Positions 16,369 to 18,134 of a stretch of DNA of 64,000 nucleotides are shown here, one piece after another. The notes under the pieces were generated by a model. That model did no database searches, was not told where the DNA came from, and saw only the letters and a program-made list of their open reading frames with translations. Position numbers and translations under genes: made by a program. Source of the DNA: Caldicellulosiruptor saccharolyticus DSM 8903 (GTDB lineage Bacteria; Bacillota; Thermoanaerobacteria; Caldicellulosiruptorales; Caldicellulosiruptoraceae); NCBI RefSeq assembly GCF_000016545.1, contig NC_009437.1, positions 1,467,501 to 1,531,500 on the forward strand. The letters run 5' to 3'. Position 1 is the stretch's first letter, and the number at the start of each line of letters is the position of its first letter.

Positions 16369-16407
16369 AACCATCATACGTGGTATATTTTTACAATTAA
16401 ATCGCAA

Positions 16408-16426
16408 AAGGAGGTCACAACAGTTG
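16408..16426 (+). promoter_or_regulatory. Orphaned SD and TTG start left of the IS607 element
   Basis: A strong SD (AAAGGAGGT) followed by a TTG codon at 16424 and AAA ATA ACA leads nowhere: the frame stops after 13 codons. It resembles the ATG AGC ATA ACA start of the HD-domain gene at 17577. I infer that it is the original translation signal of that gene, now separated by the inserted element. Confidence 0.4.
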
Positions 16427-16452
16427 AAAATAACAATGCAAAAAGGTATAAT
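16424..16452 (+). promoter_or_regulatory. Promoter of the IS607 recombinase gene
   Basis: TTGAAA (16424-16429), a 17-base spacer and TATAAT (16447-16452) form a near-consensus sigma-A promoter 20 bases before the recombinase start. Confidence 0.65.
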
Positions 16453-16471
16453 TTTGAATAGGTGATGTTGA

Positions 16472-17077
16472 ATGTTGCTAAGTGTGCAAAAAGTTAAAGA
16501 GATATATGGTATCAGCCGAAGAACACTAATAAACTGGGAGAAGGAAGGGTTAATAACACCTCTCAGGACACCGAAGGGAAGGAGAAGGTATAAAAAAGAA
16601 GACATAGAAAAACTACTTGGCATGATAGAGGAAAAACCAAAACCAACTGTTGTTTTGTATGCAAGAGTCTCCACTAAAAAGCAAGAAGAGTACCTTAAAA
16701 ACCAAATTAGAAGACTTGAAGAATATGCCAAGTTGCAAGGTTGGCAGTATGAAGTTATATCTGAAATAGCCAGCGGAGTGAATGAAAACAGGAGAGGACT
16801 ATTAAAACTTTTGAACAAAATCAAAAGAGGGGAAGTTGCAAAAGTTGTAATAGAGTATCCTGACAGACTTGCAAGGTTTGGATTTGAATATCTTAAGTTT
16901 TTCATGGAGAGTTTTGGGGTAGAACTTGTAGTATTAAATGGCAGAGAAAACGAAGAAGATATTAACAGAGAACTGGCAGAGGACTTAATAGCGATAGTAA
17001 CATCTTTTGCAGCGAGGATTTATGGCAATAGAGGTGCAAAAAAGCATGGTAACGGTTCAGGCGAAGCTAATTTTTGA
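16472..17077 (+). CDS. tnpA: IS607-family serine recombinase (TnpA)
   Basis: This 201-residue transposase has a MerR-like winged helix-turn-helix at residues 1-50 (VQKVKEIYGISRRTLINWEKEG, then RRRYKKEDIEKLL). A serine-resolvase catalytic domain follows, with Ser67 in YARVSTKKQ, a PDRLARFGFEYL segment and the terminal ARIYGNR typical of IS607. IS607 enzymes excise and insert the element through a serine-DNA intermediate with little target specificity. The frame appears intact. Its 3' end overlaps the start of tnpB at 17046, the usual arrangement. Because tnpB is truncated, the element may survive only by TnpA activity. Confidence 0.92.
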   Translation: MLLSVQKVKEIYGISRRTLINWEKEGLITPLRTPKGRRRYKKEDIEKLLGMIEEKPKPTVVLYARVSTKKQEEYLKNQIRRLEEYAKLQGWQYEVISEIASGVNENRRGLLKLLNKIKRGEVAKVVIEYPDRLARFGFEYLKFFMESFGVELVVLNGRENEEDINRELAEDLIAIVTSFAARIYGNRGAKKHGNGSGEANF

Positions 17078-17200
17078 CAGCAGCGAAGATAAGCAAAAGG
17101 TATTAGACCTTATGAGAAGATGGTCCTCTTGTATGAGGTATGCATACAAGAGGTTACTGGAAAGGCATAAAAGGAATGAACTCAAAAGAGGGCTGCTCAG
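17046..17200 (+). pseudogene. tnpB: Truncated TnpB (N-terminal fragment)
   Basis: From ATG 17046 the frame encodes about 50 residues like the N-terminus of IS607-type TnpB (MVTVQAKLIFDSSEDKQKV, then MRRWSSCMRYAYKRLLE). Homology to a TnpB pattern ends around ELKRGLL. The frame stays open to 17501, but the rest is GC-rich and composed like an RNA gene. The RuvC core and zinc finger, normally some 350 further residues, are absent, which implies an internal deletion. The exact junction is estimated. Confidence 0.72.
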
Positions 17201-17224
17201 AGAGATAGATAGGGTGATAGGGAT

Positions 17225-17556
17225 TTTACAAAGCTCTGGAAGTGAGTCAGGGAGGCTATCCGTGCCTCTGGATGGAACAAGTGCGGGTAGTCGTGGCAAA
17301 AACCACAATCCCTGGCGAGTTCTCAGGGTAGCGGTGGTAACGCCACTCTCCCCTGACAGAGTCCTGCGTGATATGTCTGTCCTGAAGTCATTTTTGATTT
17401 CAGGGCAAGTGGGGAAGACCTGTAAGGGCGCGAGTTCCTGTTTCTTGGGACAGGGGCTATGGCTTTCCCAAATACCGCCTGCTGGGGCTGGGAAAGCCTG
17501 AAAGGCGGACTACAAATACCCCAGCCGCCAAACTCGTGCAATTTTGCACAGTTTGG
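17225..17556 (+). ncRNA. Structured RNA of the IS607 remnant (omega/re-RNA or HEARO-like)
   Basis: This stretch is markedly more GC-rich than its surroundings and full of stems: GAGGC/GCCTC (17252-17268), GTGG/CCAC (17293-17306), CCCTG/CAGGG (17310-17328), GTGG/CCAC (about 17334-17346), CCTGAA/TTCAGG (about 17381-17404), CCTGT/ACAGG (about 17437-17454) and GGCTTTCCC/GGGAAAGCC (17461-17498). Loop sequences of the last stem also pair downstream: CCGCCT (17475-17480) with AGGCGG (17503-17508), and GCTGGGG (17481-17487) with CCCCAGC (17519-17525), giving pseudoknots. A final hairpin joins CCAAAC and GTGCAA to TTGCAC and GTTTGG (17528-17556). TnpB and IscB elements carry such RNAs at the element edge. 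The class assignment is inferred. Confidence 0.6.
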
Positions 17557-17576
17557 TTGACCAGGAAAATTTTATT

Positions 17577-18134
17577 ATGAGCATAACACGCGATATTGCA
17601 CTTGAAGAGGTTAAGAAGAGAATTAAAACACCAAACCTGCTTAAACATTGCTTGGCATGTGAGGCTATTATGAGAGGGCTTGCATGCTATTTTGAAGAGG
17701 ATATGGATAAATGGGGAATATGCGGGCTTGTCCATGACATAGATTATGAGGAGACAAAAAATGACCCAAGCTCACACAGTATAGTTGGTGCAAAAATATT
17801 AGAGGATTTAGGGTTTGACAAAGACATTGTGTATGCAGTAAAAGTTCACAACGACGCACATGGTCTTCCCCGTTTAAGTCTTATGGATAAAGCGCTTTAC
17901 TGTGTTGACCCAACTTCAGGGTTTATTGTTGCAGGTGCGTTGATTCTACCATCAAAAAAGCTCTCTGATGTGACAGTACCATTTTTAATGAACAGGTTTA
18001 ATGAGAAAAGCTTTGCAAAAGGGGCAAATAGAAGCCAGATGAAGGCATGTTCTGAGCTTGGGCTTGAGCTTGAGGAGTTTTTAAGAATATCTTTGGATGC
18101 CATGCAGAAAATAAGTGTAGAGCTTGGGCTGTAG
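17577..18134 (+). CDS. HD-domain phosphohydrolase-like protein
   Basis: This encodes a 185-residue HD-superfamily protein. The metal-binding pattern is visible: His24 in LLKHCLACEA, His53-Asp54 in GLVHDIDY, and a later VKVHND. Such proteins are metal-dependent phosphohydrolases of unidentified nucleotide substrates. ATG 17577 gives the family-like start MSITRDIALEEVKKRIKTPNLL; AGGAA about 10 bases upstream is a weak SD. The IS607 remnant lies immediately before it, and a much stronger orphan SD is found on the far side at 16408. The gene overlaps or abuts rnr. Confidence 0.85.
   Translation: MSITRDIALEEVKKRIKTPNLLKHCLACEAIMRGLACYFEEDMDKWGICGLVHDIDYEETKNDPSSHSIVGAKILEDLGFDKDIVYAVKVHNDAHGLPRLSLMDKALYCVDPTSGFIVAGALILPSKKLSDVTVPFLMNRFNEKSFAKGANRSQMKACSELGLELEEFLRISLDAMQKISVELGL

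Follow-up and report, generated by a model that had tools for sequence, protein, structure and literature searches.

Judged against its relatives, the window analysed here (64,000 nucleotides of the genome of Caldicellulosiruptor saccharolyticus DSM 8903) carries an IS607-family element that has lost the middle of its tnpB gene and has kept an intact, structured, and conserved RNA at its 3′ end. The explanation that best accounts for the whole, to which we assign a probability of about 0.6, is that this RNA is the predicted reRNA scaffold of a divergent TnpB clade and that its terminal unit survives as a putative cis-acting leader. The parts of the element are:

16410..17565, + strand: IS607-family element with the core dinucleotide GG at either end; borders from more than 50 compared copies and from empty sites
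16406..16414, + strand: host Shine-Dalgarno sequence AAAAGGAGG of the interrupted gene, which is the insertion site and candidate target-adjacent motif (TAM); from sibling empty sites and GGAGG left flanks
16424..16465, + strand: possible leader ORF of 13 residues with a TTG start and TGA stop, 3′ of the captured Shine-Dalgarno sequence and 5′ of tnpA; from reading of the sequence
16472..17077, + strand: tnpA, an IS607-family serine transposase of 201 aa, apparently full length (NF033518 transpos_IS607, E 7.5e-70; MerR and Resolvase Pfam domains)
17046..17501, + strand: truncated tnpB, codons 1-53 joined in frame to codon 414 onward (intact-TnpB pieces 2-53 and 414-488 in one 166-aa frame)
17214..17565, + strand: structured RNA, candidate reRNA/guide-RNA scaffold; the synonymous-rate fall begins here, and 29 of 106 pairs are compensatory in 16 copies

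The right end of the element, placed at 17565 by the comparison of copies, faces the start codon (ATG 17577) of the HD-domain gene that it interrupts, and the left-end base is ambiguous within GGAGG, with the GG core probably at 16413-16414 based on the empty sites. In sibling genomes the empty site reads ACAAAAGGAGGAAG...ATG, and relative to it the junctions in the window are AAAAGGA-GG-TCACAACAG on the left and ACCA-GG-AAAATTTTATTATG on the right, which is the IS607 pattern: the element joins its target at a dinucleotide common to both, and the target is not duplicated. The TnpA protein likewise belongs to this family, as a serine recombinase with a MerR-type HTH (NF033518 234 bits, cut-off 110). 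Across the family, GGAGG precedes 30 of 33 element left ends compared to 1.8% of random 30-mers from the window, and the elements therefore insert in Shine-Dalgarno sequences. The element's own expression may draw on the ribosome-binding site of the host gene.

The sequence gives seven blastn matches within its own genome, and copies of it are present in 27 of 101 relatives. The target choice and candidate TAM of these copies coincide with ribosome-binding sites. A second copy, in a sibling species, occupies the Shine-Dalgarno sequence of the same HD-domain gene, through either common ancestry or repeated insertion. One full tnpB element of the family, together with its RNA, resides on a 172 kb viral contig, and three element remnants occur 5′ of what by eye looks like selD, with an in-frame TGA where its selenocysteine would be expected.

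The preliminary description of this DNA had recognised an IS607 element with a truncated tnpB, which the NF033518 match and the two pieces of intact TnpB in one frame bear out, but it had the frame fading near 17200. Instead, about 360 codons have been lost without a frameshift, joining codon 53 to codon 414; the RuvC domain is gone with them, and the truncated tnpB has no Pfam match. Intact copies in relatives have a tnpB of about 460–510 aa with the stop codon inside the RNA, such that the first ~210 nt of the RNA (two thirds) also serve as codons of the tnpB tail. The extent first given for the RNA (17225-17556) proved slightly too narrow, and the GC-rich character ascribed to it was confirmed (0.49 in 500-nt segments that cover the RNA vs 0.35–0.41 around it).

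The RNA folds better than all 100 dinucleotide shuffles (z = −5.6), and RNAalifold applied to the 16 diverse copies distributes the pairs with compensatory changes over both the tail-overlapping domain and the terminal part. In the body of 57 intact tnpB genes, pN/pS is 0.20 at a pS of 0.50, and the tail, from the codons matching ~17214, has a pS of 0.29 at a pN/pS of 0.53 (0.6–0.8 in its first part), with substitutions more even across codon positions than in the body. This is the pattern expected where a structured RNA overlaps a weakly constrained protein tail, and by these substitution data the RNA is dual-coding. Translation of the stretch in homologues had been named beforehand as an observation that would speak against an RNA, and this is half borne out: ~210 nt are translated, although synonymous change is reduced there and the protein is weakly constrained. 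It is hardly credible that the stretch is constrained as DNA (through transposase binding) or as protein and not as RNA, and this reading is largely refuted; the stretch does occupy the end of the element on which TnpA acts, and intact copies translate its first part, but helices that cross one another stay paired with both sides changed, the synonymous rate drops and the codon-position bias vanishes in the tail, and standalone units (solos) persist without tnpA. No family in Rfam 15 matches the RNA at the gathering score or at a permissive E of up to 5, where chance matches only were returned; the RAGATH-18, HEARO/IscB omegaRNA, and group I intron models are among those without a match, and a HEARO/IscB affiliation finds no support.

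The last part of the RNA forms a compact unit with the following components:

17458..17560, + strand: terminal RNA unit with H1 stem, two crossing pseudoknot helices, and closing hairpin (model R1 match of 118.6 bits; covariation)
17461..17470, + strand: H1 5′ arm GGCTTTCCCA, pairs with 17489-17498; 88 distinct arm pairs in 126 units
17489..17498, + strand: H1 3′ arm TGGGAAAGCC, pairs with 17461-17470
17475..17480, + strand: helix a 5′ side CCGCCT, pairs with 17503-17508; nearly invariant, with a single full exchange TCGCC/GGCGA
17503..17508, + strand: helix a 3′ side AGGCGG, pairs with 17475-17480
17481..17487, + strand: helix b 5′ side GCTGGGG, pairs with 17519-17525
17519..17525, + strand: helix b 3′ side CCCCAGC, 3′ of a near-invariant AAATA
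17528..17556, + strand: closing hairpin adjoining the right end, seen in the sequence and with compensatory changes

The loop of H1 carries the 5′ sides of helices a and b, both of which pair downstream, and the two helices cross one another and also the GGCTTTCCC stem (H1). All pairings named in the preliminary description, including the closing hairpin, are present at the place it gave, and both of its pseudoknots hold, with covariation found upon checking homologues; ordinary folding cannot show them. Among 27 sequences of the terminal unit, 15 of the 33 pairs have two-sided changes, a number never equalled in 500 shuffles. Helix b occurs as 24 distinct variants in the 126 units, with 93.5% of positions paired vs 75.8% when shuffled (maximum 86.3%); model-fitted alignments lean towards the pairing of the model, and helix b is unpaired in the model. 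Relatives have full exchanges of this helix to GCAGACC/GGTCTGC, GCCAAGG/CCTTGGC, and ACAGGGG/CCCCTGT. Four elements are missing the same ~78-nt stretch, which is the pseudoknot core. One of them (L048) has an open tnpB frame of 522 aa without the terminal unit, and the unit may therefore not be essential to a guide RNA.

By position and structure, the RNA of the window is a candidate for the TnpB guide RNA (reRNA) of the element. As the preliminary description had it, the RNA lies where a TnpB guide RNA does, overlapping the tnpB 3′ end and reaching the right end; its conserved structure includes a pseudoknot, and TnpB with the RuvC D-E-D residues is present in relatives and in an element of the same genome (L051), being absent from the window copy and with one residue lost in another element of the genome (L050). 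The protein of this clade is by its sequence a divergent TnpB. The GID.N.YP, IVIE, and (S/T)KD motifs of the RuvC triad are conserved in nearly all intact copies, TIGR01765 and TIGR01766 match, guided_TnpB matches below its cut-off only, and a CxxC zinc ribbon is not seen. Foldseek searches with the predicted structure return Cas12f-guide RNA complexes as the best matches, of which only the ranking is used, and with caution, due to a model mean pLDDT of 53. A sequence search of solved structures returned no relative, and no tested TnpB belonging to the clade was found.

The preliminary description had also raised the prospect of an intact TnpB acting in trans, and a search of the genome identified two full-length tnpB frames. 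In L050 (934-935 kb), TKG replaces (S/T)KD, such that the third acidic residue is a glycine and the nuclease may be dead; the tnpA of this copy is shortened. L051 keeps all three RuvC residues (GID.N.YP, IVIE, SKD), and therefore a protein that could serve the window RNA exists in its own genome, making a supply of TnpB in trans possible. In the mechanism that we propose, the reRNA scaffold would be cut from the element's own mRNA, and the guide would be the first ~20 host bases beyond the right end, here:

17566..17585, + strand: predicted guide, the first ~20 nt past the right end and into the start of the HD-domain gene; from TnpB biology

The Shine-Dalgarno sequence would act as the target-adjacent motif, and recognition of an empty Shine-Dalgarno site by the ribonucleoprotein would favor retention of the element. 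The window copy, which cannot make TnpB, could rely on the intact TnpB encoded at another locus of the genome.

The terminal unit is not confined to elements. Of 399 genomes sampled across the host phylum, 21 yielded the unit in searches with the covariance model and an exact pattern, and it was also identified in named thermophiles from other phyla: the Aquificota (Persephonella, Hydrogenothermaceae), the Thermodesulfobacteriota, and MAGs of less certain placement. Many of the units in thermophilic Bacillota, Aquificota, and Thermodesulfobacteriota have neither tnpA nor tnpB nearby, and the CCAGG element end is absent from 80 of 213 distinct unit occurrences. The 3′ end of a unit is mostly found 12–20 nt 5′ of a start codon. 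The genes that follow are varied and encode lumazine synthase, RadA, ASADH, threonine aldolase, LeuB, SecD, the ATP synthase delta subunit, and a BioF/Kbl-type transferase, as well as HIT proteins, bifunctional-nuclease proteins, and a GH2 glycosidase after uxuA; RpoA, GrpE, AspS, and AMMECR1-like genes were recognised by eye only. In three unrelated genomes a HIT-family gene stands behind the unit (one identified by Pfam and two by eye). Shine-Dalgarno strength 3′ of the solos is below the window baseline, a comparison biased by the choice of start codon and so not taken as proof, and several of the genes have a normal Shine-Dalgarno sequence as well, which weakens the case for a leader role.

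This range of genes bears on the reading of the terminal unit as a metabolite riboswitch. A compact fold that combines two pseudoknots with invariant unpaired bases, immediately 5′ of ribosome-binding sites, has the appearance of one, but no common pathway joins ASADH, LeuB, lumazine synthase, RadA, SecD, ATP synthase delta, GH2, and HIT genes, and with no Rfam match besides, we regard a riboswitch as unlikely.

Selection on a standalone unit is indicated at the GH2 gene, 5′ of which the unit is present in 11 of 11 sibling genomes with that gene. The flanks in these genomes have diverged, H1 and the closing hairpin occur with different sequences that still pair, and one genome has GCCGGGG/CCCCGGC as its helix b in place of GCTGGGG/CCCCAGC. 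Additionally, solo units before the AMMECR1-like gene are common to different genera. Both observations weigh against the view that the standalone units are functionless leftovers of decayed elements, with covariation dating from their life as elements. That view can point to the CCAGG end and flanking element sequence kept in some solos and to a bare remnant of the element right end in the window's own genome, but inertness sits poorly with compensatory exchanges at one orthologous locus, and we disfavour it as very unlikely.

No TnpB, whether of this clade or another, was found in nine of the unit-bearing genomes, many of which are MAGs and several incomplete; one of the nine is a single contig at 99% completeness with two units and no TnpB match. 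One of the 11 genomes with the GH2 unit is without a TnpB of this clade, with other TnpBs present. The retention of the GH2 unit with compensatory changes, along with units in genomes without a TnpB match, therefore assigns the unit a role independent of this TnpB. Comparison of loci shows that selection maintains standalone units 5′ of the start codons of unrelated genes, also in genomes without a TnpB match. A 1.9-Mb MAG has about 20 units, with helix b mostly changed and no detectable TnpB; the similar upstream flanks among these units make them look like a dispersed longer element. A unit antisense to an IS605-type tnpB was considered as counter-evidence to a guide RNA and set aside, as it looks like a second element inserted beside a solo unit.

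The same distribution supplies the case for the main rival, in which the terminal unit began as a free-standing cis-acting leader RNA of thermophiles and was picked up by IS607 at its right end, as group I introns were by IStrons. There it would keep the interrupted gene expressed, and the guide scaffold proper would be the upstream domain. Units in genomes without a TnpB match are consistent with such a capture, as are the several Aquificota and Thermodesulfobacteriota records that hold distant units as solos only and the elements without just this unit, among them L048 with its open tnpB frame. Against this, the unit adjoins the right end, where the core of a TnpB guide scaffold is expected, and decaying element sequence lies upstream of many solos, so at least those derive from elements. 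Capture of a preexisting leader is less likely, and the preferred reading remains a reRNA scaffold whose terminal unit outlived some of its elements.

With the unit before ordinary genes, sometimes in genomes without a TnpB match, a second job was probably gained there. From its position and conservation, we infer that the terminal unit is retained as a cis-acting leader. The co-option raised in the preliminary description finds support at other loci, where the last ~100 nt stand alone, and none for the window copy. Insertion in ribosome-binding sites, some of them of likely essential genes, implies that the gene-facing end of the element must permit gene expression. A compact fold near the start region may help 30S loading, prevent bad folds, or protect the 5′ region of the mRNA, and as an element decays its terminal unit could persist in a cis-acting role, as a leader that aids translation initiation or protects the mRNA. 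Tentatively, and with less confidence than in the reading as a whole, the ~100-nt double-pseudoknot RNA may be both part of a nuclease system and a portable leader that keeps an interrupted gene translated, repeatedly kept by thermophiles of several phyla after transposon and nuclease were lost.

In the open literature searched on IS607 insertion at Shine-Dalgarno sequences, on TnpB in Thermoanaerobacter, and on related RNA motifs, we came across no description of this RNA. The element-borne RNA would be a variant of the known TnpB guide RNA type, and its standalone use would be new if confirmed. The RNA family described here is missing from Rfam 15 and is tied to a divergent, structurally unsolved TnpB clade, and about 200 distinct natural unit sequences are available for analysis. 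Should the standalone units act in cis, the guide-RNA end of a transposon would have been domesticated repeatedly without its protein, for which no description was found, and the unit suggests how cells may tolerate an element that inserts in the ribosome-binding sites of important genes.

Among known systems, ISFba1 with its RAGATH-18 reRNA (PMC11061315) shares the IS607 tnpA-tnpB arrangement and a pseudoknotted RNA at the tnpB 3′ end, and its TAM, AGGAG, resembles the Shine-Dalgarno site used by the family of the window element. The ISFba1 scaffold is 187 nt with a TnpB of ~390 aa, compared to ~350 nt and ~460–510 aa here, the latter without a CxxC zinc ribbon; the separation from RAGATH-18 is drawn on size, protein, and Rfam model score. 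The reRNA of the ISXfa1 IS607 TnpB, as far as the accessible part of the report describes it (PMC10711439), is ~150 nt and similarly crosses the right end, and its pseudoknot is needed for activity; that part reports one pseudoknot and no standalone copies, whereas the window family has two as well as solos. Surveys of GC-rich intergenic RNAs (PMC11109978, PMC8632094) also recovered GC-rich structured RNAs from AT-rich genomes, with IS607, TnpB, and thermophiles unmentioned in their main texts. IStrons (PMC4227781) are likewise insertion sequences with a structured RNA, through which insertion may do no harm, but they combine a group I intron with the IS element, and the window RNA has no group I intron match in Rfam. 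Exapted TnpBs with guide RNAs (TldR), in the accessible part of their description (PMC13418256), resemble the present case in that part of a TnpB system is kept for host use. TldR keeps the protein; in the standalone units, even where no TnpB was found, it is the RNA that is kept.
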